Positions 1 through 47,400 of a DNA stretch of 64,000 nucleotides are shown here, one piece after another (the first letter of the stretch is position 1; every line of letters begins with the position of its first letter). Both the position numbers and the translations under genes were made by a program. Source of the DNA: Tubulanus polymorphus (taxonomy: Eukaryota; Nemertea; Palaeonemertea; Tubulaniformes; Tubulanidae); the NCBI RefSeq assembly GCF_964204645.1, contig NC_134025.1, positions 27,124,001 through 27,188,000 on the forward strand. Reading direction: 5' to 3'. Below the pieces are notes generated by a model. It was not told where the DNA came from, searched no databases, and saw nothing but the letters and a program-made list of their open reading frames with translations.

Positions 1-3000
1 GAAATGACCACATATGGGAGCAATTATTGTGGCATGATGCTTTTACATTTTTGAGTGAAAATGTTTCATAGAATTTGTTTTTTCAAACAGACGACCTGGC
101 TCATATTCCAAAAATTTTGTTGACGCTTTAGAATCGATCCATAAATTTAAGCGACGTTATGAATCGTTATCTACATTTTCATCATATTTTTGGTCTTTTA
201 AACTATTCATCAAACTCTTGATAGAATATTCACTTTTTATCATTGTGCATATTAGTTATTTCATGATTTACAACTTCATTTTGAATTCCATCTACACTCG
301 TAGTTACTACCACATTCATCGCAGCGCATTTCAATGATGGCGGAAAAAAAACGGTTTGAACCTAATAATGAAGCCATTAAATCCACCTGCGGATACTAAA
401 TAAGTAGGCTGATGGGAATTAGAAAATTTGTGAAGTGTCAAATTTATGTCTTCATAGTAAACACACCGTGACCAACACAGCGATAAAACCACATCTTTAA
501 TGAGTATTTTTGATAGCGTTAGGTTTAGAGCAATGATGATTACGTTCACATTGAAATTACAAACACGTTCCATATTTGTCTGAATGGACGACAACGACCG
601 CGACTAGTCACCGTTTTATCAAACAACACGAGAACACGCAAGAAATTATTGAAGAAAATGCTCTCGAAGGGCGTTCCGAAAAGTGTAAAGGTTAGGTTCG
701 CTTTTCCATGTTTCCGTAAAGAAAGACATTAATTCAGCAAAGACTGGTTTTACACTTCGTCATTTGATGCGTCATTAAGCTCATTGGCTCATTTATCTAC
801 GTTATTTGTTTCCGGCACACTATTCTCATTCTACATGACCCACCGTAAGCACGTATGATGATTTGCTGGCGACCGAAAAAACGCCGCCGTTGACAGGTTC
901 GTGAAATATACGATCACCGGTCATACTATCACAAACGTGTTCATCTAATCTTCACATAATTCATCGATTCCAATTTTGATCACGCAATCGTTGCAATTGT
1001 TGCGGATTCCTTTTTTTAAACATGTTTAATGTAGGACATTTTGTGTGAGAAAACATATTCTTTCGATGATGAATGGATGGTGGAAACTCCTGTCATCTGT
1101 TACCACGAATAAATACATAATAAAACAGTTGAAATTGTAGACAATTACTGACGTTGTTGTTTACAGATGTTCGTGTTGTTGGGAGCTTGTTAACACATCA
1201 CTGAAATGATTGTTGAGCATGAAGATGTAGAAGACACTGTTGGTGGTAGTATAACCTCAGAATTCCTCAGATGTGATTGAAGTGAAACATGATTTAATAC
1301 ATCTGCTATCAGAAAATCCATCGTTTCTCGAAACATGATTTGTGATTAATTTGAACAACGGCAGTGGTTGATTTCTCAAGGGTTCATCGTCTATAGTACC
1401 GATTAATTACTCGCTGCTTCATTGACTAGGCCAACATATCATCAGCAACACCACCAGCAGCAGCAGCAGTGCTGCATCTTTATCTACTATATGGAAAATC
1501 AAGTTATTTTTGTGAATGGGTGTTTTATGAAGGCTTGTGAATTTTTTTCACTGTACAGTTAAGCGCAGACACTATTGTTCGTGCGAATGCACTGGAGACT
1601 GAACTAGTCAAAGAGTCTGGTGAATCCATCATTACGATCTGATCGGATGAAGTCGCTCCTGATGAAGGGGCTCCAGTGCTTTCAGAAATACAAAACTTTA
1701 TCGCAATTACTATCTGTTGACGGCCAAAGCATTCATTTGTTAGCACAACTTCGTATTTTACAATACTTTTATCGACACTTGCACTTATTCCTGATGAGGT
1801 CATTCAGAGTCTTCCCGCCGTTTGTGAAATGTGATGAAATTCCCTGAGAGCGTGTGTGCATTTCGCTCATTAATTAAATGCAGATTTTGTCGCTATTCAT
1901 GAACGCGCACTTTCAATTTCGAGCTACTTTCGTGCAAGTTTTCATTAACTGATGATTTATTGAGTCTGGTGCCACCGACCCCTTATAAAACATATATAAA
2001 ACAACATGCTATAAAATAATGGCACGTAGTGTTTATCAATCTTGTGCAATTCAATTTGTTATTCATCACTTATGAGTTTAGGTTTTAGGTGCTGTATATT
2101 TCCTAATAAAAGTAATATTTCAGGCAGAAAACCGGGTTACTTAGTATATTACAAGCACATGGCCCATCAATCCCACCCTCATTGCCTTTCTCTATGACTC
2201 CAGTACGATGAACCAAGTTTTATTTTGAAATACCGTCCTGAATTGCTGCTCAATCTCTGTTTTAGACGTGCGTCAGATCCAGGCAATTAAAACACATTTT
2301 AATTGTTCCCTAACGATCAAAAGTAATCGAACCGTTTCAATGATGGGAAATGTGAATTTAAAGATGTTTAAATACAGATCAATACGGCTTTGATTACTCA
2401 ATGATAAATGCTATTTCGTACACTTCTGGAAGTACGTACAGCCTGATTTTGTCAATGACTTTATCTTACTATTATGCTGAACCTCATCTTGCGAGGCCCA
2501 ATTCTCAATTTCTTAAGGATAGTGAAATTTTATCAGCAACTGGTTTTATTTCTTCATCAAATTGACCGTGTCGACTTTGAGTTGCCAGAAATTGCCAAGT
2601 TTATCAAACCGACATTGAATTGTAGAAAAAATCTCTAGTTTTACCTCTCAGTTCGGCCCGGTGATAACCTCCACTTTCCTTCATCTGTTCCAACTTCTCC
2701 TAAAATTAGTTTGAACTTGTTTCAGTTCCCGACATGTGAAGTCGAGATGTAAGATTTCTTGCACACGTGAGTGTGGTTACATTGAAGGGGATCATTAAAT
2801 TCATTTGGGCGTTGAGGATGCGTGATTTCCCTCACTACTCGTCAGCGATGACATTCACTTTTAACAAAAGTAACTAATTAGTCAGTATCGCATATAGTCA
2901 GGGAAATCGTAGTGATAAATATCAAGAGGCAACACTGATTGGATAGATTACTATCAGCCCGAAGCAGTAGCTAGAAAACAAGATGGGAATAATGAAGTTT

Positions 3001-4510
3001 CCGCTGTGGATAATGCCTACAGTTAGGTGTTTAGGGTTTGCTTGTGAAGTGTACGCAGAAGAATGATAAAAAATGCTGTCATCAAATGACACGAAACATC
3101 TATTTTCACCATCAAAGATAAGCGGAATCTAATGTTTTCATTCTGCACTGCAAACTATGATATTTCGTTCTGGTATCTAGATCTCATTCAAAAATGAGAA
3201 ACGAATGCCTCCGACATCGCGGCTGCTACAAGATCTTCGGTTGTAATAACATCAGTGACTCTTACTTCATCATATATTTCACAGGTTTTTTTTTTATTTT
3301 TTCGTAATTGATCATGTAATGTTATGATTAATATAATGCTGGGTATGGTATTTCTCGAAAACTAGCGCTGGAACAGATGTTTTTTCTTGTATTGCTAGTG
3401 TCATGTTAGATTGAGTACTCTTATAACATGATCTTCCTGTTTGAGCTGTGAATATACGCGGCGTGGTGGAAATTTTCTACCCAACAAAAAACACCTGGCT
3501 AGTGTTCGGTATGAAATAAGCTAGTTATCTCGATCCCCGCTAAGCCAGTGGTTGAAACCTTTTTGTTCCGAATCAGTTTGAAGACATGCGCGTAGGGTTT
3601 CTTTCCATTCCCCAGTTACAAACCTCTACACAAACTCGGCTTAGAGGTTTCAATGTTATAAAGTATTCCGATAGTTTTGTATGAAAGTAACGGATATCAT
3701 TAATCAAGGCTGTTATCAAAGTAATAAAGCGTTCATTAACAATTAAACCTCAGCGATCAGTCATTTCAGTATGTTTTTTTATCACGCTCGTTTGACCATG
3801 ATTTTCTAAGCCTGTGGAATACTCCAGTTGTTACAATTACGCCCGTATTAGAAGATTGATGTTACAAGAACTAGGTGATTTCCGCTGTTCTGGCTATTTT
3901 CTTGCTAGTCATCGCTTCTATTGCATAATTCATCAGCAAAATACATAAATTGTCCTTTTCTACTGCAAAATAATGAAAATAGATTCCGATTCAGATGTTT
4001 CATTGTCATACATTATTCAACCGTATGGGACTATATTTTTTTCCGCGTTCAGATTCGAGGTCCAACTCGACGCATCAGTAGTCTCAACTATTGCGATATG
4101 TATCCCATTAAAAGATGAATAATTTACGTGATAATTCTCGGGAGAAATATTATATACAGATAATTATGTTGTCCTTTCCCCGGGCATCGTGAATAGACAC
4201 TCGTTAAATTTACTACACCTGCATCGATTCAACAAGCAATAATATGCTGAAAGGTGCTGTTAAACCCATCACAATTTATGACATCAATTATCAATTCAAC
4301 TAATCATTTTGTGTCATTTACACCTTTTAATACATACAGTTGTTGTATAACCGTCCTTATTTGTCTATTTTCAGGTAAGTCGAAAGTTCTGGAAGTATAT
4401 ATCTGTTACGTCCTGAAGGTTTTCTTCACAGCCCTTCTTTTGAGAAAGGATATTATATAGGTATTGTTTTTACTGATACAGGCTAAATATTTACAGTGGT
4501 CACACAAAGA

Positions 4511-24069: not shown

Positions 24070-25094
24070 CTGTGTAGCTTTTGAAATGAAATTATGTGAA
24101 ATTGAATGAATATCTATGTTTTCTTTGTGAATAATGTGAACAAAAGTTTGATGTAAATCAGTAGATTTCTAAGTAGTAATTCCTATTACTAAGTGTAACT
24201 TAGTTTCCTTTCTTTCATTGATTATTGTGACCAGCATTTTCCAGAGGGATCATTCAGGATCTGCCCATCTTTTAAATTAACGTGTAGACTGGTTCAAGTA
24301 TTAATCTATGACAACCATTTTTTTCAAAATTTCATTGATAACAATAGTTTTGATACCAACTGCTATTTTACATATTTGACCATAAATGTATTAATTACTC
24401 AATCATAATTGAATTTAAGGATGAAAAGCAGGCATAATTGATGTATGTGACATTTTCTGAATTGCAGATTTTATGAATAAACAATGGATTTAACATTTTG
24501 CAATCCTTGCCTGCTACTAGGAATTTTGGATCAATCATTAAATTTAGTCTATATTCTTGATTTATTGAATGCTACTTGATGAATTTACTCATCATCATTG
24601 CAAATGTGTTGCCGTGGGAGGCATTCAACCCCTGTTAAGGGCAAGACTGTTCAAAATGCATAAATAAAGTTAGATCAATCAAAATTATTTATGTTGGAAT
24701 ATTTTCTTTGGTCAGGGTGAAGCTTGGAATTTAAAAACAGTGATTGTTTATTTTGACTGTGTATGCCGGTAGCCTAGAAATTATCAGAACTATTTTAAAT
24801 TTCGCGGGCAACCGCTCGATTTGGTGCTAGCACCATACGGTACCCTTGTGGGATTTCTGTGAACTAAGCCAAGGAGCCTTATACTGACTGAGCCATTTCA
24901 TTCGAAAAAGTCAAACGCGCCGTTGTCCCTAATAATCCGAATCCGGGTTTTAGCCGATTGTCCAAATCCATAATTTACCCGTGACGGACAGACACGACGA
25001 TACCGCGCGCTCAAGGACGTTGAGAGCTACAGTGCTGTTCTCTACCGGAGATTTACAGGGTTACTAAAATTACCCCAGCTTTTACATCGTTAAA
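24070..25094. other. MED14 3' UTR and intergenic spacer
   Basis: About 1 kb separates the MED14 stop from the mannosidase start codon on the same strand. The left half carries the MED14 3' UTR with two AATAAA signals. The right half must hold the promoter and 5' UTR of the mannosidase gene; no TATA box is obvious and the sequence becomes more CpG-rich just before the ATG. Confidence 0.5.
24477..24482 (+). promoter_or_regulatory. Candidate MED14 polyadenylation signal
   Basis: AATAAA lies about 410 nt after the MED14 stop codon. A second AATAAA occurs at about 24662. Either could end the transcript; both precede the mannosidase start by 430-620 nt. The choice between them is inference. Confidence 0.5.
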
Positions 25095-29971
<4,877 letters not shown>

Positions 29972-32900: not shown

Positions 32901-34504
32901 TGAAAACCTCGAATGGTTTGGTTGTCTCCTAAACCCCCACGATACCATGTAGCAATTGCCTAGTACTGGTCGGATCCATAGGCTCTTCCAGAAAATATGA
33001 CTTCCAAAAAATATAGCTTTTAGAAGGTCCAATCGCAGTAAGCCATTTCAGAGTGGGTTTTGGGTGCAGACATCTTTTGTGGAATACGTACCATGTAATG
33101 CAGTTGATTTATGAATGATAAAGCATGCATCTGATGACGTACTTTCTCAAAGGAATATGAAGCGAGGTCTTAGGAGATCATGTTATTTGTTGAATTGATG
33201 TAATCTATCATTATCAGGGTTAATATCAGTATGCCACAATACATACGTAGATATCTGCTGGTGTACACTACCAGACTGTCCTGTCGGGCAAAAAACAATT
33301 TAATTTAGCTTAATTGATTGAATTAATGGACGAGTAATGCCTGCGGAGAATTTACAGTATAGAGTTGAGAATATCCATGGGGTAAACTGAAAAAAATGTG
33401 TATTTGTGAAATTGCTGAAACCCTTCTTAAATGCTACAGTCATCCCGAATTCATCATTAGTGCGTATGCGCCGTTGGTACTGTAGGAATTAATTAAAGAC
33501 GTGAATGAAATTGCCCTGACGGGGAATAAACATAGCTAACCCATCATTAACATTTGCACGAAGATAACGAGAAGGAATTGTAGCAAATAATAATATCGCA
33601 CGCTCGGTTTAGCGACAATGTATGATTGCATGCACGCGGCCGAGAAAACGCTGCCTCCAGATAAGCTAAAAATTCCACTCGACTCAGTTTGGTTTACGCG
33701 TATGTACCATATTTGCAAAATGCCTAAGTATATTGACAGTGTCACTGGACGATGTGTATTTTCTGGACCTAGGATAAATACGATATGTTGTAAAAGTCAA
33801 CGCGAAGTGAATAATTGACATATAGGATACAGAACCGTTTCCGATGAAAAACTTGGGAGTATATCGAGACATTTAACTATGCTTAGCTATATCAAGTGGG
33901 TAAAAACGGAGATTTCAGATAACGTAAATCTGCAGAGTTTCAAGATGCCGCGACAGAATTTCTAATGTTTGTTTAACGGTAAGACAATATTGAGTTTAAT
34001 CTCGACTAAGAAAACCTTGCGTATTTTCAAGTGGATCTTGGGAATCTGATACGTTGTTTACTCGGGAAGCGAGGCTAATTTACTGACGCTTTTGAAAGTC
34101 ATCATGTTTTATGACTTTTATCAAAATTATCTCTGTTGACATTTTTTTTAAATCAGAACGTTACTGTAGTTGTATCACGGTTTGCGTAGTTTATTTTCCT
34201 TGTGCAAAAAAGACAAATTTCCATGTATTTCAACGTCAAAACATATACTATAGCGACAGCAACATATTTCATATCAACGAAAAGAGAATATTCATTAATC
34301 AGTTTGATGAATGGTGACATTCTTGGCATCGCGGAATTCTCTAGTAGTATGATTTATCGCTCTCTTTAAGTCAAGATCCGTATGTTTGATTGTAAAACGA
34401 GTTTATATCTCAATTCTAATAAATTGCTTCTCATACCGATGGATGCTGGTGCCATCTTCATTTCGTTTCGTTTATGTTTTAGTGAAGTAAGATTACACGT
34501 CAAT
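29972..34504. other. Long mannosidase 3' UTR followed by unassigned intergenic DNA
   Basis: No coding segment is supported. The first good polyadenylation signal cluster after the mannosidase stop is AATAAATAAG near 32320, which would give a ~2.35-kb 3' UTR. The part from about 32.35 to 34.5 kb lacks recognisable features and should contain the promoter and any 5' UTR exon of the downstream Roco gene. Confidence 0.5.
32320..32325 (+). promoter_or_regulatory. Candidate mannosidase polyadenylation signal
   Basis: AATAAA, directly followed by a second overlapping ATAAG variant and a T-rich stretch, is the best downstream signal for the mannosidase transcript. It implies an unusually long 3' UTR. 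Shorter variants may exist. Confidence 0.4.
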
Positions 34505-37500
34505 ATGGATATCCTCACAGCCACTTATACCGGTAACATTGAAAACCTGGTCATATTACTCTCAAGTGACCGTGGGGTCAGTCAAATAGATACTCGGGAT
34601 CCAGTAAGGAAGTTTCCATCGAATCATCCGGCTAAATATTTCATATATATTTCGAACAATTTCAGAAGTAATGTTTTGTTGTTGTTATCTTATTATTCAA
34701 GGCCGGGCGCACAGCATTACACCTCGCGTGTAGAAAAGGACATAGGGACATCGGAGCGCTTCTTTTGCACAATGGGGCCAATACAGATGCGAGGGATTTG
34801 GTAGGCTTCTGCGTTACACGGAATAAGATATATGGCAGCAATGCATTTCTTAAGCCATAAATAATACGAGTTATGTTGTCTTCGCAAACAGTTTGGATTA
34901 CAAATAAGCACACACAAATATAATTGAAGATTTAGTCGCAGTTACATCTCGTTTCATCTGCAGTCTCGTTTGTGCCCCAGTCTTTTTAATTATACCCAGA
35001 ATAATGACACTCACGTATGTCTATTTTTCCTTCTGCGTATAGTTTGGTATCACACCACTACAAGAGGCAGTTAAAGCAAGCAATAAAACCATGGTAAAAA
35101 TGTTAATACGAGCTGGAGCAACTGTTCTCGAAAATAAAAAGGTTAGTTTATCGTAGAATGCGAGATGAACGTACGGGGAAAATCTCTGAAAAGATGATTC
35201 TTTCGGAAAAATCATTACTAGAACGTTGAAGATATTTGGCGTTACGATATGATGTTAAGAAATGAACACGTAGCGATGAAATACCACGCTTTTGGGTGGA
35301 GGCGTTAATCTAAAGCTTTATTTTATCATAGCCAGCCATGAATAAATGTAATATTCATTTCAAATTTATTCAATAATATGCGCTTCACTTTTGAAAAACC
35401 GACTCGTCTGATCATTTTTCTTTTTGATGTTCTAAGATTGCGTAACAATTCAAACGAAAGCAATGTCGTGTGCGATCTTATTTCTGCTTTCAGAACGTCA
35501 GAACTGTATTACACGACGCGTCTGAGAAAGGCGATACATCTATTTTAAGATATATTCTATCCGCCGGAATAAGCACGGATGTCCAAGATGAGGTAGTTTC
35601 CCAATCTATAACTGGCTGAATTAACTAGCTATGCGCTATTCACATGAACATAATGGTACTGAAGATACAGGAAACGTAAAGATAATGATTATAGTTTCAT
35701 TAATCATATATACATAGTGCCCTCTTTCTAGCCATATACATGCTATATCGAGCTAGGAGCTAAGGTTCAGACATTTCGGCCAACAAGTCCGTAGACGTGG
35801 GCTTTGCATATCGGAGTGATACAGTATTTCCCACAATCTTATTTCCGATGTACTTCCTCTGACGTGAATCTAATTTCATAAAGCGTTAATAGGATGCAAT
35901 TAGGATTTCCTCCGAGAATTTCACTGAATTTTCGTTATTTCAGAATAACAGAGGTCCTATTCACGAAGCGACTTTGCAGTCACATGGGCGTGTTATTAAA
36001 GTTTTATTGCAAAACAACGCGGACGTAAACCTAAAAGATACGGTATTTAATCTAGACACTTAAAGATAACCAAAACAACCTGATCTGCTATGACAGAGAA
36101 CATTTAAAGATTACTTCTTACATATTCAGTATAGAACCAATTACTTGAACTAAACACTTACGGGGTATGATATCTTATATGCAGTGAAATGAATATTGTT
36201 TTTCAGGAAGGAAACACGGCCATGCATTTAGCTGCGATGGAAGATTCTGATGCGATCGTTAAACTGTTGCTGCTGTTCAAAGCCGATATTAATTCACAGA
36301 ACAAAGTATAAATTCTATATCAAGCAATCACTTTGCTAAATATCAGAATTGCTCAGACATTATTCTGCTTTCACACATGAAACATATATAGTTCTGTGTT
36401 GTATTTACACCGGCCTGAGGGTAATATGAATATTTGCCACGCCTTGTTATCCTGGAAATATCAGGAAGCGAGGCTTAATTAGTATTGTTTGTTTCCAAGA
36501 TTCTCGTGAATAATCAACTGCTTGGATCATCTTTCTTAGGATGGAGACTGTCCGCTTCATTTATCGACTGCAAAAAGCCACTTTCTCACTACGGAGGTTC
36601 TACTTACTAATCACGGAGCAGTCGATATTAAAAATAAGGTATGCGATCCCTTCCTCTCCGCATTGCTTTGATGCAACCGACACCAAAGCAATTATTCTCA
36701 ATAGCCACAGAAGATGGTTCCAAGTGGTACAAGCACGCTAGCAGAAAACGAATACGGGGCGAAATTAACATCTCTCTTAAAAACATCGCATTCAAGCCAT
36801 CAGGCGTTCGTCATTGCCGTTTATTGAGAATTTTAAGTGCCATCTCTGCTGATCATTTATGTCTCAGATTTCATGTCTCATATGACCTAAAATGCGCTAA
36901 AAAATTCATGTCCGCAGGTTGGCGAAAGTGCATTCGACATCGCTGTTGGAACTGGGAAATTGAATATGGTTAAACTATATTTGAATATTCGTGCAGATAT
37001 CAGACTACAAAACCAGGTAGAATTTCAATAAAAATTGCCGAAATCAACTCTGCTCATTTGGCCCATGTTCCAGACATGAACCCATTAATAATTCATGTAC
37101 TATTTCGTGATAGGAATATGAGTCAGTTTTGTGTCGAGCTGCTATCAACGGACATCTTGATCTTCTTTCCCAGTTGCTGAAACATGGGGCGAATATTGAT
37201 GGTCGAGACTCGGTAAGGACTTACATGATTCCAACTTCTTAAATCTTGATTTCATTTTCGACGGACAATGAGCAAATTTTTCGGGAATACCTGTTGATAA
37301 AAATGCTGGCGTGGTTCGAAAATAATCATTATTTTCATCCGTGCGACACGAAAAACACATTTTCTATTCCCGTCGACAGTTTTGCGGAGTATTCCATCGC
37401 TTTCGTAAGTCAATTATATTTCTTCAATAACAGACTGGAGAGACTATTCTACACAAAGTAACTCGCAACGGAAACATCGATCAGTTGAAAATGCTGCTCA

Positions 37501-40500
37501 ATCACGGAATTAATGTCGACATGGCGAATTACGTAAGCTAATTTCAAATTTCGGAGAGTAGAGGTATCCCTTCATCCTATCTGGCTCTCCGATCGCCGGA
37601 AACGGCTGCTTACTAAAACGTAATCTATCAATTTATCCAATTCTATTCGTCTGGATCAAGTCGTGCTAAACCACGTAGGTGGGAAGTGAAGAAATACAAG
37701 GACGTATAGTTATTAGCCATATTATAACCCTTCAACACACATCATGTTTGAAATTTATTTTTACAGGATGGTAAAACTGCTTTAATGGTTGCGGCGCGAC
37801 AAAACAGCATCGATTCGGCTGAGATTTTACTGAGTCATGGGGCGAATTCTTCCGTTCAAGATACAGTAAGCAGAATTTGATATCGGAATATTTAGATTCG
37901 AAGCATCATGCACTTTCTTTAAAACTAAACCCACGTGTAATATTTGAAAACCGTTCGCTTTGTAGACTGGCGAGACGGTTTGGCACATTGCCGTAAAATG
38001 GAGACATTTCAAATTTGTTGACTTGTTGGTGGATAAAATGCAAGATGTAACTGTAACAGATAAGGTGAGTCGGTGTAGAAGGTAATCTAGTTTTCATGCT
38101 TGGTATAACTTTTTGTATTACGCTGGAAATGAAATGCATTTTAGGAAGGCCGAACTGCTCTACATATGATGGCATACCTCGGATACGAGAAATGTTTGAA
38201 TTCGGTGCTGCATGGACGAATCGACATAGAACTGAAGGATCATGTGAGAATTCAGATTTCGAATATTTCATTAATCAAGAACATGTACCATATGAACTTG
38301 AATACCTCATTGCATTAGTTAAATCGTTTCAGGCCGGTTTGTCAGTTCTTGCGACGGCCGCGACAAAAGGCCACGTAGATACTTGTAAACTACTAATTAG
38401 ATACGGCGCGAATATCAACTCTCAAGACAAGGTATTTACTGAAGTTAAATATATGAGCCTATTCTATCTAATTTCGAATTTAAAATTTGGTTTGAATATT
38501 CTAGGATGGCAGCACTCCTCTCAAAATTGCTGGCTGTGGCGGCTACACGGATGTTGTCGATTTGTTGCTTCAATGCGGAGCCGATGCTAATATCGTTGAT
38601 GAGGTGGATTTCTTTTGAATTGTTATATGTAAGAATCAATCATTGATGTCTAGCTATTCTTCTCTATGTTTCAGGAATCCTACGCGCCGCTGCATTACGC
38701 AACACTTAAAGGTTACTCTGATATAGTGAAATTGTTGGTAGAATATGGAGCTGACATCCACGTCACTGATAAAGTTGGTATTCCCAACTAAAATTTCTCT
38801 TTCAGGCGCTAAGTTCATGATAGGTTTTTATTACCATCATTATAATTGTTTATCTAAAAGGAAGGTAAAACGGCTCTCCGATTTGCCACAATTGAAGGGA
38901 GAACTTCACAAGCGGCTCTTCTGCTAGACCATAATGCCGATGTTAATGCGGTAGACAAGGTAGCGCATGATAATCAATGTCACTTCAAAAAGAAATGAAT
39001 TACTGATAAAAATAGTCTCCACGATGTCTTTGATGAACCTCCAATGATCAGTTAGTTGTTTGATCGTCGTTACAGGATGGAAGAACAGCCTTGCACGAAG
39101 CAGCCAAGGACAATTTGCACGATCTACTCCGTTTTCTGTTAAAGAAAGGATCTGAAATCAACGCCTCTGATAATGTAAGTGTAATAGCTTACTAATCTAT
39201 ATCAAAATATTTTAACCTTATTTTATATATCCTCCGCATATGTTTGCAGGAAGGAAGAACGAGTTTACACGAGGCGACTCTAAATAGCTCCTACGAGTGT
39301 TTGCAAATACTGTTGAATAATGGAGCTACTGTAAATGCCTTGGATCTTGTAAGTTATATAACATCTGAAATGCTTTAGATTTAGAAATGGCTTCTCAATT
39401 AATAATTTCTGTTTGAAGTGTGGCCGAAGTGCATTACACGAAGCAAGTCGACGTAATAGAGAAATTGCCGTACAAATGCTTATTAACCACGATGCGACTG
39501 TAAATGTAAAAGACAAGGTATTTACATAGATACAGATCTTCCAACTCCAACAACATGTTTTTAATGCAAATATTTCATCTTGATATTTTTCACCTTTTAA
39601 GAACGGCTTGACGCCGCTCCACGAGGCGTCGATATCCTGTAAGGGCAGTTTAGACGTGATTGATGCTCTTCTATCAGCCGGGGCAAAACCAAATACCAAA
39701 GACAACGTAAATTAGAAAAAAATAATATCCAAAATACGAGATAACTGTAGTGTGGATTGAATTCATATCAATTACTAATTATTTGTATTTCAGGTAGGAC
39801 GAACGGCACTGATGGACGCTGCTTCGAGTAATAGTAAAAATAATGTGGTAATTCAAATGATGATCAAAGCCGGAGCGGATGTAAATCTGACAGATCAGGT
39901 AATGTATTCCAATGTCTAAGTTAGCTTCTAAGTTACACTATAACCTCTTACCAGTTTGGTTAGTATGACGCGTGTGTTTTTAGAACGGAAGGACGGCCTT
40001 GATGGACGCCTGCTCTAAAAGATTTTATGAGATTGCTCAAATTCTGCTAACCTTCGATTGCAAAATCAATATGACTGATTTGGTGAGTCCTGAGTGAACA
40101 TCGATATCATTTTCTCAACGAATAAATTTCCAATTTCATGGCAATCTAATCCACTTTCAGAATGGCAGAACGACGTTGCACGAGGCCGCGCGTAATGGTG
40201 ATTTACACCTTGTAGAATTATTGATACAACAAGGCGCTGATATGAATATACAAGATAAGGTTAATTTAAGAACTTTGCTTACGATTCTTTTTTTAGAGGT
40301 CACACGTAGATTATTCGGATATGTATCATTCCTCTGTATTATCTCTTAGTCAAATCAGACGGTTTTACACAAAGTCATCAAATCCCAGGACCTCGAAGCG
40401 ATAGTATGCGTGCTTAAAGCATGTCCCGATATCAACGTACAAGATGAGGTAGACTTTAATACGTACGGTAGCATCAGAATGATTTTGACAATTTAGTATT

Positions 40501-43500
40501 GTTGTTGGTTTCTATTTGATGTTAATAGGATGGACGGACAGCATTAAGTTTAGCTATATTTCAAGGAGATCGAGAAGCAGTGGAACTACTGTTAGGAATT
40601 CCCGAAATTGATGTCAATATCCAGAATAAGAGTGGACACACGGCCTTACACGAGGCAGCGAGACGTGAACAAGGCGTGATAAATCTGATAGATTTATTAC
40701 TGAGAACAAACATTGATGTTAATGCATACGATAAGGTATATGATAGAAATATTACGATAAAGAATATTGAGAAATAATATTCGCATCAAACATTTTACTT
40801 CGTTTTAGTTTGGCAAAACCGCACTCAACTTTGCCACAGCGAGGGGCCATAAGAATGCCGTTTTACTTTTGGTACAAGGAGGGGCTCAAATTGTACCAGA
40901 AGACCTCAAATTTATCAAGGTATGAATACCTGTTCATGCTACCGAATAGTGTTTCTGAGGTTTATATTATGTTTTACATTGAAGGATGGTTTGGACGATG
41001 TGTGTGCAGTTGCTAGATTCTGTGACGTTGAAGATGAAATATGGACAATAAATACAGCGTCTTGTGAAGAACTCTACCGTGAATTACGAAGCTCGAAATG
41101 CGTTGAAATTGACCGTCTAACCATACAATCAGACGAATCTGAAGATTTAACTTTATTAATGGAAAATCTAGCTGCGAATGGAATTCACGCACATCAAATA
41201 TGCCTGGTAAACATACAAGGCTTTGTAAATGGTAGTCAACTCGCAAGATGTCAACCGCTTGTTGAAAGGTTAACATTAGTGAACTCAAGTATACGGCATC
41301 CGGAAGCTTTGCGACACTTGGAATCTTTGTCAACTCTACGAATCATCGATTGTGGACTCCTAAAAATGATTGAAACAATTGAAATGCGCAGTCTTGAAGT
41401 TCTTGATATTAGCCATAACCGCGTACAAGTGTTGCCGAGGTCACTGTCCCAATCGAAGATGTTGAAAGTGCTAAGATGTAACCACAACTCTTTATTACAC
41501 CTCCCCATGGATATTGGTCACTTGGCAGAGAGTTTGATCGAACTTCGGGTGCATACAAACAAGCTATCATCTCTTCCAGCTTCAATAGCAATGCTTTCAA
41601 AATTGGAATCATTTACATATCACAACAACAGGCTGCATAACATTCCCAGCGATTTACAAAATGCACCGTTTTCTGAAATCAAGAAGTACCTGAAAGCGTT
41701 ATTAACCGATCCGGTTCCGAACACTACTGTTAAAATGCTGTTAGTTGGACAAGAAGGCGTCGGAAAAACAACCATGGTAAAAGCTTTAAAACGGCAGTCG
41801 TGGTTTTATGATGATCCAATGGAAGTTGGTAAAACAGATGGCATCGATATAAGCAGTTTCAAAATTGGAGATGTTACTTTACGATGTTTCGATTGTGGCG
41901 GCGATGCCGATTTCAATGAAACTCATAATTTCTTCATGACTTCCCAAACTATTTACCTAGCGTGTTTTAATCTGAGTGAATACTCGCTGACAACATTCGA
42001 AAGAAATAATCACATGCTCGGAAGACTTCAGTTATGGTTGCAGTATATATTCAGTAAAGCTCCCGAGAGTCGGGTGATAGTGGTTGGAACCCACGCCGAT
42101 CATCCATCGTTGAATCCAATTCTTCTTAACAAAATCTGGGAGCAAGTGCAGCATTTGTTAAATAGTTCACGTTCCGAGCACAACCGTATCTTCCGACGAA
42201 ACGCTTGCCTTTCGGAATGTTTGATTTGCCAACCACCAAAACTCCTCAGTAGACAAGCAAAGAATTCTAGAACTGCTGGATTTGTTACACTGACAAACCC
42301 ACCTCCGATCGATACAGATGATGATGATGACGAGGAAGAGGTAGTTGATGATGACGTATTTCTGCAGTCGGAAAGTGAAGATTCTGAATATGAAGCAGAG
42401 ACTATGTCCCGGCACGGTATATCAACATTTCCTCATGTTGTCGGTTACGTCGAAGTGAGCAGTATGAGAAAAGTTGGCAACCGTTTTTATAATTTCACCA
42501 CCAATGAAAGCATGGAAAACCTGAAACAGATTATAGAGCGACATGCTAGTGCGATCATCGAAGAAAATCCCACCATTCCAAAGCTATGGTTTACTATTAA
42601 GAATATCTTACACCGTGAAATAGGACAAGTGAACAGGGAACAATGTTACGTCAGTGTTGACAGGGTACGAGATGTTTATAGACAGTTCAACGGTCTGGAT
42701 GATGAGGATTTCAAGAATATGCTTCTTTTCTTCAAAAGCCAAGGAGATATCCTTTACTTTCCCAAAATTGAAGAAATAGCCAATTTGATAATTCTTGATC
42801 CGATGTGGCTGGCAAAGAGGTTCTGTTCATTGGTTTCGTTCAAAGATACCGGATTAGAAGATGGATTTCTGGATCGTGAAAAACTCAATGAAACTTGGCC
42901 TGATATGATTCCTAAAGACCGAGATAAACTGCTTATATTGTTTCGTCAATTCGGTGTTTGTATTCCAATTGAAGGCTCAAATACTGAGATGTTTCCTTGT
43001 AAGTTACCACTTGGTGAACCGGACGATAGTCTGTGGCCACAAATTCCTAGTCCGGTAAGACTTCAGCTAACCTACGTGTTTCGTTTGGCGTTTGTACCGC
43101 CATCATTTTTCAGCACTTTGATTTACATGAACTTTAAAACCCGACACGCTTTTCCCGACTCTAATCCTCACACTTTTTCGCGATATCTATCGAATCACAT
43201 CGTTGATATACTGTCCCTTACCGATGTTGGGTGTCAAGACTGCGAACATATGACCAAAGAAAATTGTGAAGAGGGACAAATTCATCGTGTCCACTACGAA
43301 ATCCTGCCTCATCGCCGAGAATTTCACATAAGCGTAAGAGGACCACGACCATGTTGTATGATGAGAAACGTGAATGAAACTATAAACAAAGCCATATCTT
43401 GGTTTGAAGGGATGCAACCAGTTACGCTTGACGACTTAGCTTGCCCCATGTGTATATTTCAACATCGAGACGATATGCACATATTCTCAGCGCGTCAGCT

Positions 43501-44203
43501 GCGAGAGAATTCACCACACGTGGCTATTTGCTGTAACGGGCACGAGCTGTCTTCCGCCGCGGGTCTATTAACCGGAAAAATCCTCGACAGTTACCTTCCC
43601 CGGTTAGATCTTACTAAACATATGGAAGCGATGGATGATCGAGAATGTCCAAAACTATTCGTCGTTCTTCCCGTAAATCGCGATGGACTCTCGCTTGGAG
43701 AGAAAATCAAACTTTGGGCGTCTTCGTTACTGTTCGATGGATTTGCCGTCCATCTACTCTGTGAATTTCCCGGTGGCTTTCACTTCACGAAATCTCCGGG
43801 ATATCGTCTGAATAGAGCGGGCGAATTCATGCAGTTCTACGGTAACCACGTGGTTTCTATACTGTACATGATTGGTTTATTCGCGAGAGCTTCGGGAAAC
43901 TACACGACAATTGTCGAAGACGCTACTGAAATGTCGGATACTATTGATGAACTTATCGAAGATTATCGTATACGATTCCCAACTGATGTGAATACTACAG
44001 ATATAACCGATCCTGATATTGCTATGCGTATCGTTAATGAAAACGCACGTAGTTTCAGCAGGTCGAGACTGCGCCATTTTCTGAATGTTATTGATAAACC
44101 TGGTTCGTTCGGCTCCCTATGGAGACTTCCTTACAAAAACCAAATCCTTTGGCTGTGTCCTGAACATTACAAAAGACTTAAGAAAGTGGTGATTAAAAGG
44201 TAG
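34505..44203 (+). CDS. Multi-ankyrin, LRR, Roc-COR (Roco family) protein without kinase
   Basis: A 28-exon gene encoding 2007 residues. Exons 1-20 are each exactly 99 nt, starting at 34505, 34702, 35043, 35494, 35944, 36207, 36540, 36918, 37114, 37434, 37767, 37966, 38145, 38333, 38505, 38675, 38861, 39076, 39250, 39419. Then come 39602-39706, 39794-39898, 39984-40082, 40161-40259, 40350-40448, 40529-40735, 40809-40919 and 40985-44203. Each small exon is one ankyrin repeat of the form xGxTALHxA…LLLxxGAxxNxxDx; exon 26 holds two. All introns are phase 0. The last exon has LRRs (~1035-1165), a Roc GTPase with Walker A GQEGVGKTT (~1190), switch DCGG (~1238) and THAD (~1304), then COR and a Cys/His region (~1755-1788). 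LRRK1/2-like order, but no kinase or WD40. Role is unknown; Roco proteins are intracellular GTPase scaffolds. The ATG at 34505 opens repeat 1 and lies 23 nt after a plausible acceptor, so a non-coding leader exon is likely. Confidence 0.92.
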
Positions 44204-44448
44204 AAATGGTCACAACACGTGATGAGACATATATGAGAATGTGATAAGTTAATGAATATAATACCTATATATTTTAATTTTTTCTGCCGACTTTAGTTTA
44301 GTCTTTAGAATGAGCCTTTAACTCAAGTGTTTCTTAGAGGAACAACGTTTGTACACACAGAAGTAATATAAATAACTTATTCAAATATATAAAAAACCTA
44401 TCGAAGTTTATTCTTCATAAGATACAACATAAAGATAAAGATTCGCAA
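44204..44448. other. Convergent 3' intergenic spacer between Roco and CNB genes
   Basis: Only 245 bp separate the Roco stop codon on the plus strand from the CNB-protein stop codon on the minus strand. The minus-strand gene has AATAAA (plus-strand tttatt, 44407-44412) about 36 nt after its stop. The Roco side shows only variant signals such as AATATA and ATAAAT, so its transcript may run into the other gene. Confidence 0.7.
44407..44412 (-). promoter_or_regulatory. Polyadenylation signal of the CNB-domain gene
   Basis: AATAAA on the minus strand, roughly 36 nt beyond the stop codon of the cyclic-nucleotide-binding protein, giving a very short 3' UTR. Confidence 0.65.
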
Positions 44449-47400
44449 TCAGGTCGCAAATGCAGATTTTGGACGGATAGTGGCGGATACTTTACGAGAT
44501 CTTTGACCGGCAGGTAAAGACCGCGTCGATTTAGCGCTACGAGCACGTTCTCTTTCTTCTGCTATTGCCGAAATCGCGTTCTTTGGTAGCATGAAATGTC
44601 GAACATGTTTGTGACTGTCTTCACTGAGAACAGATCCTCTTGGATATCGACATTGTTTTTGTCTGACGAACACTGTCCCACCAGCAATTGGCACATCCAT
44701 AGCAGACTAAAAAATAATTTCAAATTCATCTGATCAATCTAGAATATTTAATCCTTTTGTCATCGAATTTTATTTCTTACCTTCAACTCAAAACGGCGCA
44801 TTTCCTGCACTGGAACATTATCGCTTTTATTACCGATCGGAGTAACTGATTTTGCCAGAAACCGTTTAACCTTTCCTTCGAGCTGGCGAAGAGCTATGTC
44901 ACTCGTTTCCCTATCGAAATAGTCATCAATGTCTACTTCATCGCTAGCATAACTGCTTACACTACCGAGTCGGCCACGAAGTCCCACAGGAGCCGACCGT
45001 GGCCGAGTCAACTTCCACATCTCTTCGTGTTGAGAAAGCTTATCTTTATCCAATAACCCCGATACTATCTTCATCCTAGAGTCCATTTGGTCTTGCTGGT
45101 GATTGCCCATCTCGTTCAAAACATTGATCAGAGATTCCCGTGTAATGAGTCCATCAGGATTTTGGATTCCGAGTTTTTTGAGTTGATAATCGTCCTCTTG
45201 TTGCTTAGCAACTGCATTCAACTCTTCTAGCATTTCGTCGATGAGGTGATCATCAGCCGGAAGTGAACAAGCTATACTCGGACGTCGTTCGTGAAGGAAG
45301 TTTGATTTGCTTGTCGACAGATTTTGACCGAAACTGTACGGAGACTTTGTAGCTAGATTTTCTAATTCTCGTCGACTACGTGGCCGTCGCTCCTTCGTCG
45401 TTTGATAGAAAAATCGCCATCCCTTCGAGCGTCCAGTTGCCATTTTCTCCATGGCGTTAATGCGCGCTTGTTCTTTTTTAAAGGACATTGTTTTGTAATA
45501 CAGAGACCCGGGAACGCACGAATCGACTAATGCGGTTATTTTATCGTTTAAGTAAAGTTTAACTAAATCCTGTATCTCGTTGTCCTTAGTCTTGTAATTT
45601 TTCGTTTTCGCTGCTGGCGGTATTTCTGTTGGTTTGGCAATTTCATTAAGCATTCTCAGTAAATTGTTTAAAAGCGGTATTTTCCTTCCGTAAACTGTTT
45701 GACTTCGGCATCGTAGTTTCTCCTTGGCCTTTTCATTCAGTTGTTCTACAGTCGTGTGATAACGCTTAACGAGCCGATCGTAGTTCTTCAGATCAAGGAT
45801 GTACACTTCTGTATTGGCAGTGCAAATTATTGTTTGTATGTAAGTATCCAATCTAAGAATTGTCTCGATGTCACCTTGAACAGAACGAAACAAAATATGA
45901 ACCGTTAAGAGCTCCTTTTTAAATTGCTAAGCAACTATTGTCCCTATCTAAAGGCACTTACCAAAGATTTCATTTTCTCCGATTGAACAAATATCTAAAG
46001 CATTACGTTGATAGTTTTGTTCGGCTGCTACATATCCTTCTTTACGACGTATTCTTATATTCTCTTGCGTCAGACCTCTCTTTTTATGTTCCATCTCCCT
46101 TACAATGTTTGGCCTGTAGTATAAAAACGTTTTCTTGCAATTGTACCTGGCGATGATTTTTTTAAACACGTAAATGATCTGGAAAGAACGGAAATAAATC
46201 CTTACTTAACTCGTCGTATTTTGTCGGCCTCCGACTGGCTGTCCTGAATATTCATCAAATTCTGAAACTGTTTTTTGTGATTCGCCGGTTCGATGGTAAC
46301 TTTAGCCTGACCTCTGTAACAGATTGATTAACAGATTGATGTCGAAACCGTCCACACGTAACTGAATGAATTACCTCGATAAAATTATCTTACTTGATGA
46401 TGAAATGAAGACCAATAACAGGAGTTCCTTGTTTAACGATTGTGGACTCGAACGAATAACATTCTTTTCGTAGACTCATTTCAAGAAGTCTTTGGAATTT
46501 CGGATGCCACTGACCAAACAGCGGTGATTCTTTGATAAACCGCTTTCTTTCTTCGTATTCCTGAATCTGTTTGGCCTGGAATATATTTTCAAAGCACACA
46601 TTATAGTACTTAGCTCATTTAGATGTAACGTGATTTTAATCTCTATGGCAAAAATGAATGAAATTTGGTTTAACATCAACACAACTTTATTCACCGAAAA
46701 ACCGATTAAAGGATAAATAATTAGTAATATTACATGAACTACTTACCTTTAAAGAACGGTTGAATAACTCCCTGCTGACTGACATCAAATCAGTTTCTTC
46801 ATCAGCAATAATTGACGCATTTCGCACATTATCGGGACTCATCAACGCTATCTCGCCAAAACTTTTACCAGGTTCTAAAAATATCAACGACATGTATTCT
46901 AAGGCAATTTGTGATATACATATATACTATCGCTGAGTTAAATTGCTCGTTATGACAACCCCAGTGAAATTTCACCCATAACAAAACACCAATTTCGAGG
47001 TTCGCATCTTATTTTCATATCCAATAACTGACCATCTAATTTTCTAGCAACGGCTTTCCATAATAATCCAGCATATGCGACGTCGTCCGGGTCCATATCG
47101 AATTCGTTCTTCGCAACGATTCTATTAAACATTTTGTTTATTGTTGTTCCTGATTCGTTCAACTATCGATTCCCACGGGCGTCATCAACGATAAATAATT
47201 CAGAATTTTTCGGGGTCGTACACTTTATATATATATATATATGTATGGTATTGTCGACAGGCGACATTCAGGCGTGATAGTAACAAATATAGTAGATTCA
47301 TGTATGATAATTCCCAACAAATCACATTGAAATCCTAGCAAATTCCTTTATCAAATATCCTTTTTATCAGATTTAGTTTTATCCAATCCAAAAAACACAA

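Follow-up and report, generated by a model that had tools for sequence, protein, structure and literature searches.

A gene on the forward strand of the window (the whole stretch of 64,000 nt of Tubulanus polymorphus DNA that was analysed) carries a long array of ankyrin (ANK) repeats, most of whose exons are exactly one 33-residue repeat bounded by phase-0 introns. Taken as a whole, the evidence makes it probable that this is an ancient array of exon modules in a kinase-less ROCO GTPase, which now serves as a fixed scaffold and is constitutively spliced.

Organization of the Gene and Its ANK Exons

From position 34505, 27 ANK coding exons lead into a single exon of 3.2 kb (40985–44203), which ends with the stop codon at 44201–44203; the spliced product has 2007 residues, and the frame is open across all 2007 codons. 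About 28 ANK repeats are encoded, one of which, at the N terminus, is degenerate, while two others share one exon. The degenerate repeat forms the coding part of exon 1 (34505–34603), which measures 99 nt only if 34505 is the translation start: the start codon is inferred, and in-frame ATGs lie upstream at 34382 and 34439 with no intervening stop. Then come 19 exons of 99 nt each, that is, exons 2 (34702–34800), 3 (35043–35141), 4 (35494–35592), 5 (35944–36042), 6 (36207–36305), 7 (36540–36638), 8 (36918–37016), 9 (37114–37212), 10 (37434–37532), 11 (37767–37865), 12 (37966–38064), 13 (38145–38243), 14 (38333–38431), 15 (38505–38603), 16 (38675–38773), 17 (38861–38959), 18 (39076–39174), 19 (39250–39348) and 20 (39419–39517). 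Exons 21 (39602–39706) and 22 (39794–39898), both 105 nt, hold a repeat and 2 additional residues, and the 99-nt length returns in exons 23 (39984–40082), 24 (40161–40259) and 25 (40350–40448). Exon 26 (40529–40735, 207 nt) contains two repeats without an intervening intron, and exon 27 (40809–40919, 111 nt) contains the final repeat and a linker. All 27 introns, 26 separating ANK exons and one ahead of the last exon, have GT-AG borders and lie in phase 0, as the earlier note had said of the phase.

That note had also counted 23 of 27 ANK exons as exactly 99 nt, and the count is reproduced junction by junction for the coding parts; because the start of exon 1 is inferred, the firm figure is 22 of the 26 internal ANK exons. 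Of the other four, three consist of one repeat with additional residues (105, 105 and 111 nt) and one of two repeats, and in 26/26 the exon borders are repeat borders, in register 0 and phase 0. The exons do end at the same repeat position throughout, as had been claimed, but the D-x-x motif given for that end has to be corrected: they end in D-x or N-x, position 32 of the repeat being D in 17 of the 22 internal 99-nt exons and N in 4. In a mechanical count at the true register, 22 of 27 repeats have AG immediately before and GT immediately after the 99 nt, while the 98 other registers gave a mean of 0.05 and a maximum of 1, so that chance is excluded for the 99-nt pattern. A script that chains exons found all 26 internal ANK exons again, each in register 0 and 22 with a length of 99 nt; since it was trained on the repeats and splice sites of this very gene, this is a consistency check.

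Domains of the Encoded Protein

Judged from its predicted domains, the gene product is a kinase-less ROCO protein with ANK, LRR, Roc and COR. In the last exon the LRR models of Pfam exceed their cut-offs, Roc scores 48.8 bits (cut-off 27) and COR-A, C-terminal to Roc in the same exon, scores 58.5 bits (cut-off 35.3), which gives the succession of Roc GTPase domain and COR that defines ROCO proteins; COR-B, at 22.7 bits, stays under its cut-off of 27. No kinase follows COR in the Pfam scan of the last exon, and the C-terminal 243 residues match no kinase or other Pfam family up to E 5. Compared with the PDB, the last 343 residues gave just two matches (E 0.22 and 1.2), and the best relatives spanning Roc, among the 60 matches listed, were LRRK1 and LRRK2. 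The likeness to these two lies in LRR followed by Roc, and the difference in the kinase after COR, which was not found in the last exon here. LRRK proteins have far fewer ANK repeats than the window gene. In LRRK2, according to abstracts, ANK precedes LRR. ZU5, which follows the ANK array in classical ankyrins, is absent from the Pfam matches obtained for the last exon (E 0.001), and the six ZU5 matches in the genome all lie outside this gene. An Rfam scan of the whole window at gathering scores gave no match.

Frame Neutrality and Splicing

The frame would be kept if any internal ANK exon were skipped or duplicated, all of them being phase 0 in one register; on this point the earlier note was right. 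Skipping of ANK exons is therefore possible as far as the reading frame goes, and cells might skip varied sets of them to give proteins that differ in repeat number and binding surface. In the 3′ half of the array, however, the introns have a median length of 79 nt, and introns so short usually accompany intron definition and constitutive splicing. Frame neutrality is itself no evidence of use, because it is a consequence of the exon module. What lends the idea some weight is the analogy with the LRR-ROCO genes of brown algae, where, as far as PMC11378527 describes them, one LRR occupies each 72-nt phase-2 exon, the genes are many, their exons are shuffled and under diversifying selection, and there are multiple splice variants (Zambounis et al. 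2012 is cited there). On that description this family is the nearest analogue in which repeat exons are truly shuffled and variably spliced, and it shares with the window gene the ROCO GTPase, one repeat per exon and a constant phase. On balance, such variable skipping is considered unlikely, and constitutive splicing of the ANK exons is the probable state.

Comparison with Other ANK Genes

Strict agreement between exon and repeat over so many units had been called something that ankyrin genes seldom keep. No other array examined in the genome matches this number of units; "seldom" is nevertheless too strong, because 11 of 29 other sets have introns at this boundary too, shorter arrays are equally strict, and exons that are multiples of a repeat have already been described. 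The comparison set consisted of 30 ANK regions picked by hand from listed matches, favouring clusters with short open frames, and the source searches had scored 150/642 and 150/772 candidates. L010 and L027 were dropped (fewer than 3 matches on either strand), L034, a ROCO flank, was added, and L001 and L002, parts of one array, were counted as two sets; L009, which stops no more than 0.6 kb short of either edge of its stretch, may be longer, and L024, which overran an edge, was extended. With profile and splice matrices trained on the window gene, and thus biased in its favour, 11 of the 29 other region-strand sets, with 42 of their 284 repeats, showed this boundary with phase-0 introns (other registers: mean 0.87, maximum 7). 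Next by number is L007, with 8 of 24 repeats at the boundary, while an array at C1:23288554-23294316, with 6 of 7, is equally strict but shorter in the stretch examined.

The presumed classical ankyrin gene, whose ANK repeats lie in L001-L002 with ZU5 about 20 kb downstream on the same strand (C4:7724632), likewise has phase-0 introns that divide its repeats at this point, and 10/10 of its chained exons start in phase 0. It differs in having ZU5 in place of Roc-COR and, in the part examined, mostly 2–4 repeats per exon, 8 of the 10 chained exons being 99, 198, 297 or 396 nt long. None of the titles and abstract beginnings searched describes ankyrin genes elsewhere as having 99-nt exons. As reported in PMC4585158, a class of repeat-protein genes credited to Street, Rose and Barrick (2006) has exons in multiples of the repeat unit and is attributed to duplication of an intron/exon module. 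Going by that account, the window gene resembles the class in its exon borders on repeat borders and in its single phase; no array examined in the genome has a longer run of this kind, and the gene differs in having 3 of 26 internal exons with additional residues and the one 207-nt two-repeat exon.

The same boundary could also have arisen if introns had been inserted singly and later, at a favoured site, into an intron-less repeat array. Of the 22 internal 99-nt exons, eight end in AAG or CAG and 13 have G as their first base, resembling proto-splice sites, and the repeats share little sequence, as this history would allow. All ANK exons, however, start at one and the same of 99 possible positions, including at poor proto-splice junctions (exons ending in TAC, ACA, CAT, CTT or AAT), and other ANK genes of the genome, the presumed classical ankyrin gene among them, share the boundary. 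We give later insertion only a small chance.

Age of the Repeats

The array looks old, because its 99-nt exons are at most 56% identical in nucleotides, synonymous sites show no excess of identity, the introns share almost no similarity and no close second copy was found. Over the 253 pairs of the 23 units of 99 nt, mean identity is 25.6% (amino acids) and 41.0% (nucleotides), and the best pairs reach 45.5% and 55.6%. Where residues are shared (231 pairs of the 22 internal units), four-fold sites are equal in 256 of 959 cases against 269.2 expected, and this ratio of 0.95 compares with 0.94 to 1.68 in 15 other arrays. Among the introns of the array the similarity is limited to a single 17-bp match (E 0.002). 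Five exon pairs share stretches of 21–28 nt at 79–86% (E 0.008), as is expected because the ANK motif is shared. No lag along the array has an excess of similarity after correction (lag 2, one of 11 lags, P 0.015), and no leftover repeat of at least 8 bits lies outside the exons in 33001–45000.

A search for a second gene copy, with 43 of 58 candidates scored, gave five matches, one of which is the gene itself; the other four are weak and limited to LRR or LRR-Roc, so that no close paralogue was found among the candidates scored. A ROCO paralogue with the same ANK array was not found in the flanks examined either: among the five other COR-A loci, four have 0, 0, 1 and 5 ANK matches in their upstream 10 kb, and the fifth (L035) was covered to about 0.6 kb upstream. 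In contrast to the algal family, with its recently duplicated and shuffled exons and its many genes, the window gene has ANK repeats in 99-nt phase-0 exons, saturated in their divergence, and no such set of relatives among the candidates scored.

Recent exon duplication was rejected on the synonymous sites, the intron comparison, the lag analysis and the lack of leftover intronic repeats, and the rapid duplication proposed earlier is not borne out; no compared array held near-identical repeats as a positive control (maximum nucleotide identity 0.72, L013), so the power of this test is a matter of reasoning. Together with the lack of a close paralogue among the candidates scored, these findings make it highly improbable that the locus is a hot spot where exons are duplicated and lost and whose repeat number differs between individuals or species, even though the exon pattern permits unequal crossing-over in introns without a frameshift.

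In the preferred account, the array most likely arose long ago through repeated duplication of an intron/exon module, namely one 33-residue repeat in a 99-nt exon that phase-0 introns flank where repeats meet, and the repeats would since have diverged to saturation. Against a size-matched pool of outside repeats, the nearest neighbour of a repeat lay inside its own array in 0.62 of cases, outside repeats having been kept at 20 bits or more only and all 22 internal 99-nt repeats of the window having been kept. Because repeats within the array are hardly closer to one another than to those of other genes, it is wholly from the exon structure that internal duplication is argued. Exon 26 would reflect the probable loss of one intron, and the few small in-frame insertions were probably gained after duplication. 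The long ANK superhelix probably acts as a fixed scaffold that binds proteins and so regulates the Roc-COR switch.

Significance

The window gene is a tidy case of an already published gene class. There is a slim chance that it is to animals what the LRR-ROCO system is to brown algae, a gene in which combinatorial splicing of more than two dozen frame-neutral ANK exons would yield ROCO receptors with varied recognition surfaces, the variety coming from splicing and not from new exon duplication; combinatorial skipping, if true, would mean that the ROCO receptors of algae have a parallel in an animal. The exon pattern is real and unusually long, and the repeats look ancient, frozen rather than a device for quick change of repeat number. 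The array is thus a clean, long agreement between exon and repeat that has outlasted nearly all sequence similarity between the repeats, and because the agreement has outlived that similarity here, its presence alone does not show that repeats are still being turned over.

Exon Structure of the Ankyrin Array

The junctions of the ANK-LRR-Roc-COR gene were obtained by listing open AG...GT segments and assembling them into one joined frame, which gives 27 ankyrin (ANK) coding exons on the + strand from 34505 and then a final 3.2-kb exon, with 2007 codons open up to the stop at 44201-44203. The coding length is 99 nt in 23 of the 27 ANK exons (22/26 without exon 1, which measures 99 nt only with ATG 34505 as the start and has two in-frame ATGs upstream), and the others are 105, 105, 207 and 111 nt. 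Every one of the 27 introns has GT-AG ends and lies in phase 0. The assembly thus agrees with the earlier note on both points, the start of exon 1 being inferred. The internal ANK exons all begin at one repeat position, directly ahead of xG-x-T, and exon 26 holds two repeats, the intron between them being missing. The introns (34603-40985) are long in the 5′ half (first 13, median 221 nt) and short in the 3′ half (other 14, median 79 nt).

The 27 detected repeats (at least 8 bits) were tested for a 99-nt stretch immediately preceded by AG and immediately followed by GT. At the true register, i.e., the repeat position at which these exons begin, 22 of 27 passed, against a mean of 0.05 over the 98 other registers. 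An exon-chaining script recovered the identical 26 internal ANK exons; since its matrices were derived from this gene, the agreement is a consistency check. A genome-wide pattern for exons of the form D/E-G-x-T, bordered by CAG and GTAAG and of free length (84-114 nt), gave 21 matches, equal to the 21 of the backwards control; four were 99 nt (three in this gene, one in the ANK region L007).

The Last Exon

The LRR-Roc-COR part lies in one intron-less exon (40985-44203), unlike the 27 small ANK exons, and contains LRRs, a Roc GTPase domain, COR-A and a sub-threshold COR-B. The Roc region includes GQEGVGKTT, a P-loop by its motif, and THAD, which resembles the fourth of the G motifs found in Roc domains. 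Among the best 60 of 280 PDB matches, LRRK1 and LRRK2 are the best that span Roc, and those ranked higher cover the LRR only; Pfam scans of the last exon gave no kinase domain. No Pfam family matched the last 243 residues (43472-44200), which may form a nameless domain, and PDB gave no convincing relative for the last 343. An acidic run, DTDDDDDEEEVVDDD, lies between Roc and COR-A at about 42310-42360.

About 0.5 kb past the stop there is a convergent stop-to-stop frame of 388 codons (44760-45926, - strand), without a Pfam match at E 0.001. Upstream are an open frame (25068-25778, + strand), which appears to resemble the N-terminal part of a Golgi alpha-mannosidase, and an imperfect 23/46-bp tandem repeat (26149-26358).

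Other Arrays and ROCO Loci in the Genome

The flank test was also applied to the 284 repeats of 29 further region-strand sets. Of these repeats, 42 had exact 99-nt flanks at the true register, whereas the other registers averaged 0.87 and never exceeded 7; at least one such repeat was present in 11 of the 29 sets. By number, L007 (8/24) comes next after the window gene, followed by L009 (G000:C5:8029001-8039000; 7/9, in an array that nearly reaches both edges of its stretch, so that its real length may exceed the count) and L024 with L037 (G000:C1:23286001-23299000; 5/6, and 6/7 after a 5-kb extension); there is also the three-repeat set L021 (3/3). L009 and L024/L037 are ANK genes with near-strict one repeat per exon and fewer repeats than the window gene. 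Because the fraction in L024 and L021 equals or exceeds 22/27, strictness as such is not unique to the window gene. Its array is nevertheless the longest strict run among the arrays examined in this genome, so the remark that such agreement is seldom kept over so many units stands for length and not for strictness. Downstream of the array L001-L002, presumed to be a classical ankyrin gene, a same-strand ZU5 match lies at a distance of about 20 kb. The 10 chained exons of this array are all phase 0, 8 of them being 99, 198, 297 or 396 nt. In many other sets the chained exons, in rough chains, fall at scattered registers and phases.

Besides itself, the last exon found four weak LRR or LRR-Roc matches in the genome (29-35% identity; 43 of 58 candidates scored). 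Further ROCO genes do exist, with COR-A matches at five other loci, two above the cut-off. The repeat scan gave 0, 0, 1 and 5 ANK hits in the 10 kb upstream of four of them; the fifth, L035, has a single open frame (371-3412, - strand, 1013 codons) with a Roc match and a sub-threshold COR-A match. Another region, L036, has a single open frame (3-2948, + strand, 1001 codons) with a strong Roc match, resembling the window gene over LRR-Roc. In both of these ROCO-like loci, as in the window gene's last exon, the frame is long and unbroken.

Age of the Array

Rapid exon duplication, as proposed in the earlier note, predicts alike repeats or alike introns, a prediction that the comparisons do not support. 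Over the 253 pairs of the 23 99-nt units, mean identity is 25.6% (amino-acid) and 41.0% (DNA), and the top values are 45.5% and 55.6%. Intron-intron comparison gave one 17-bp match (E 0.002); five exon pairs have stretches of 21-28 nt with 79-86% identity (E 0.008), which the common repeat motif would be expected to produce. At four-fold degenerate sites of codons common to the repeats (231 pairs of 22 internal units), 256 of 959 bases are equal against 269.2 expected from codon usage, and this ratio, 0.95, is the second lowest among 16 arrays (0.94 to 1.68). Along the array, similarity showed a lone nominal excess at lag 2 (P 0.015, 11 lags), which is gone after correction, and no repeats of at least 8 bits were found outside exons in 33001-45000. 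The repeats are only slightly closer to each other than to those of other genes: the share whose closest repeat lies inside its own array, against a size-matched outside pool, is 0.62, like L007 (0.58) and L009 (0.52) and unlike L002 (0.96), L014 (0.92) and L006 (0.86).

Origin and Role

In passages of PMC4585158, citing Street et al. 2006, repeat genes are divided into a random-exon class and a class whose exons are multiples of the repeat, the latter ascribed to duplicated intron/exon modules; both occur in the Tubulanus polymorphus genome. Parts of PMC3995336 describe human protein tandem repeats as mostly conserved, with rapid change rare, and 26% of the changed repeats as having at most one unit per exon, while parts of PMC1553488 report linkers enriched for exon junctions in some families and ANK repeats expanding mainly in groups. 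The nearest working analogue is the brown-algal ROCO genes, in which, according to passages of PMC11378527, each 72-nt exon encodes one LRR, exons are shuffled and splice variants occur; however, shuffling, their hallmark in that account, fails in the window gene.

By construction of the predicted exons, skipping of ANK exons without a frameshift would be possible. It is most likely that a module of one repeat and a phase-0 intron was duplicated long ago, the two-repeat exon 26 being consistent with one intron loss, and that the array has most likely since been retained as a long ANK scaffold preceding the Roc-COR switch.
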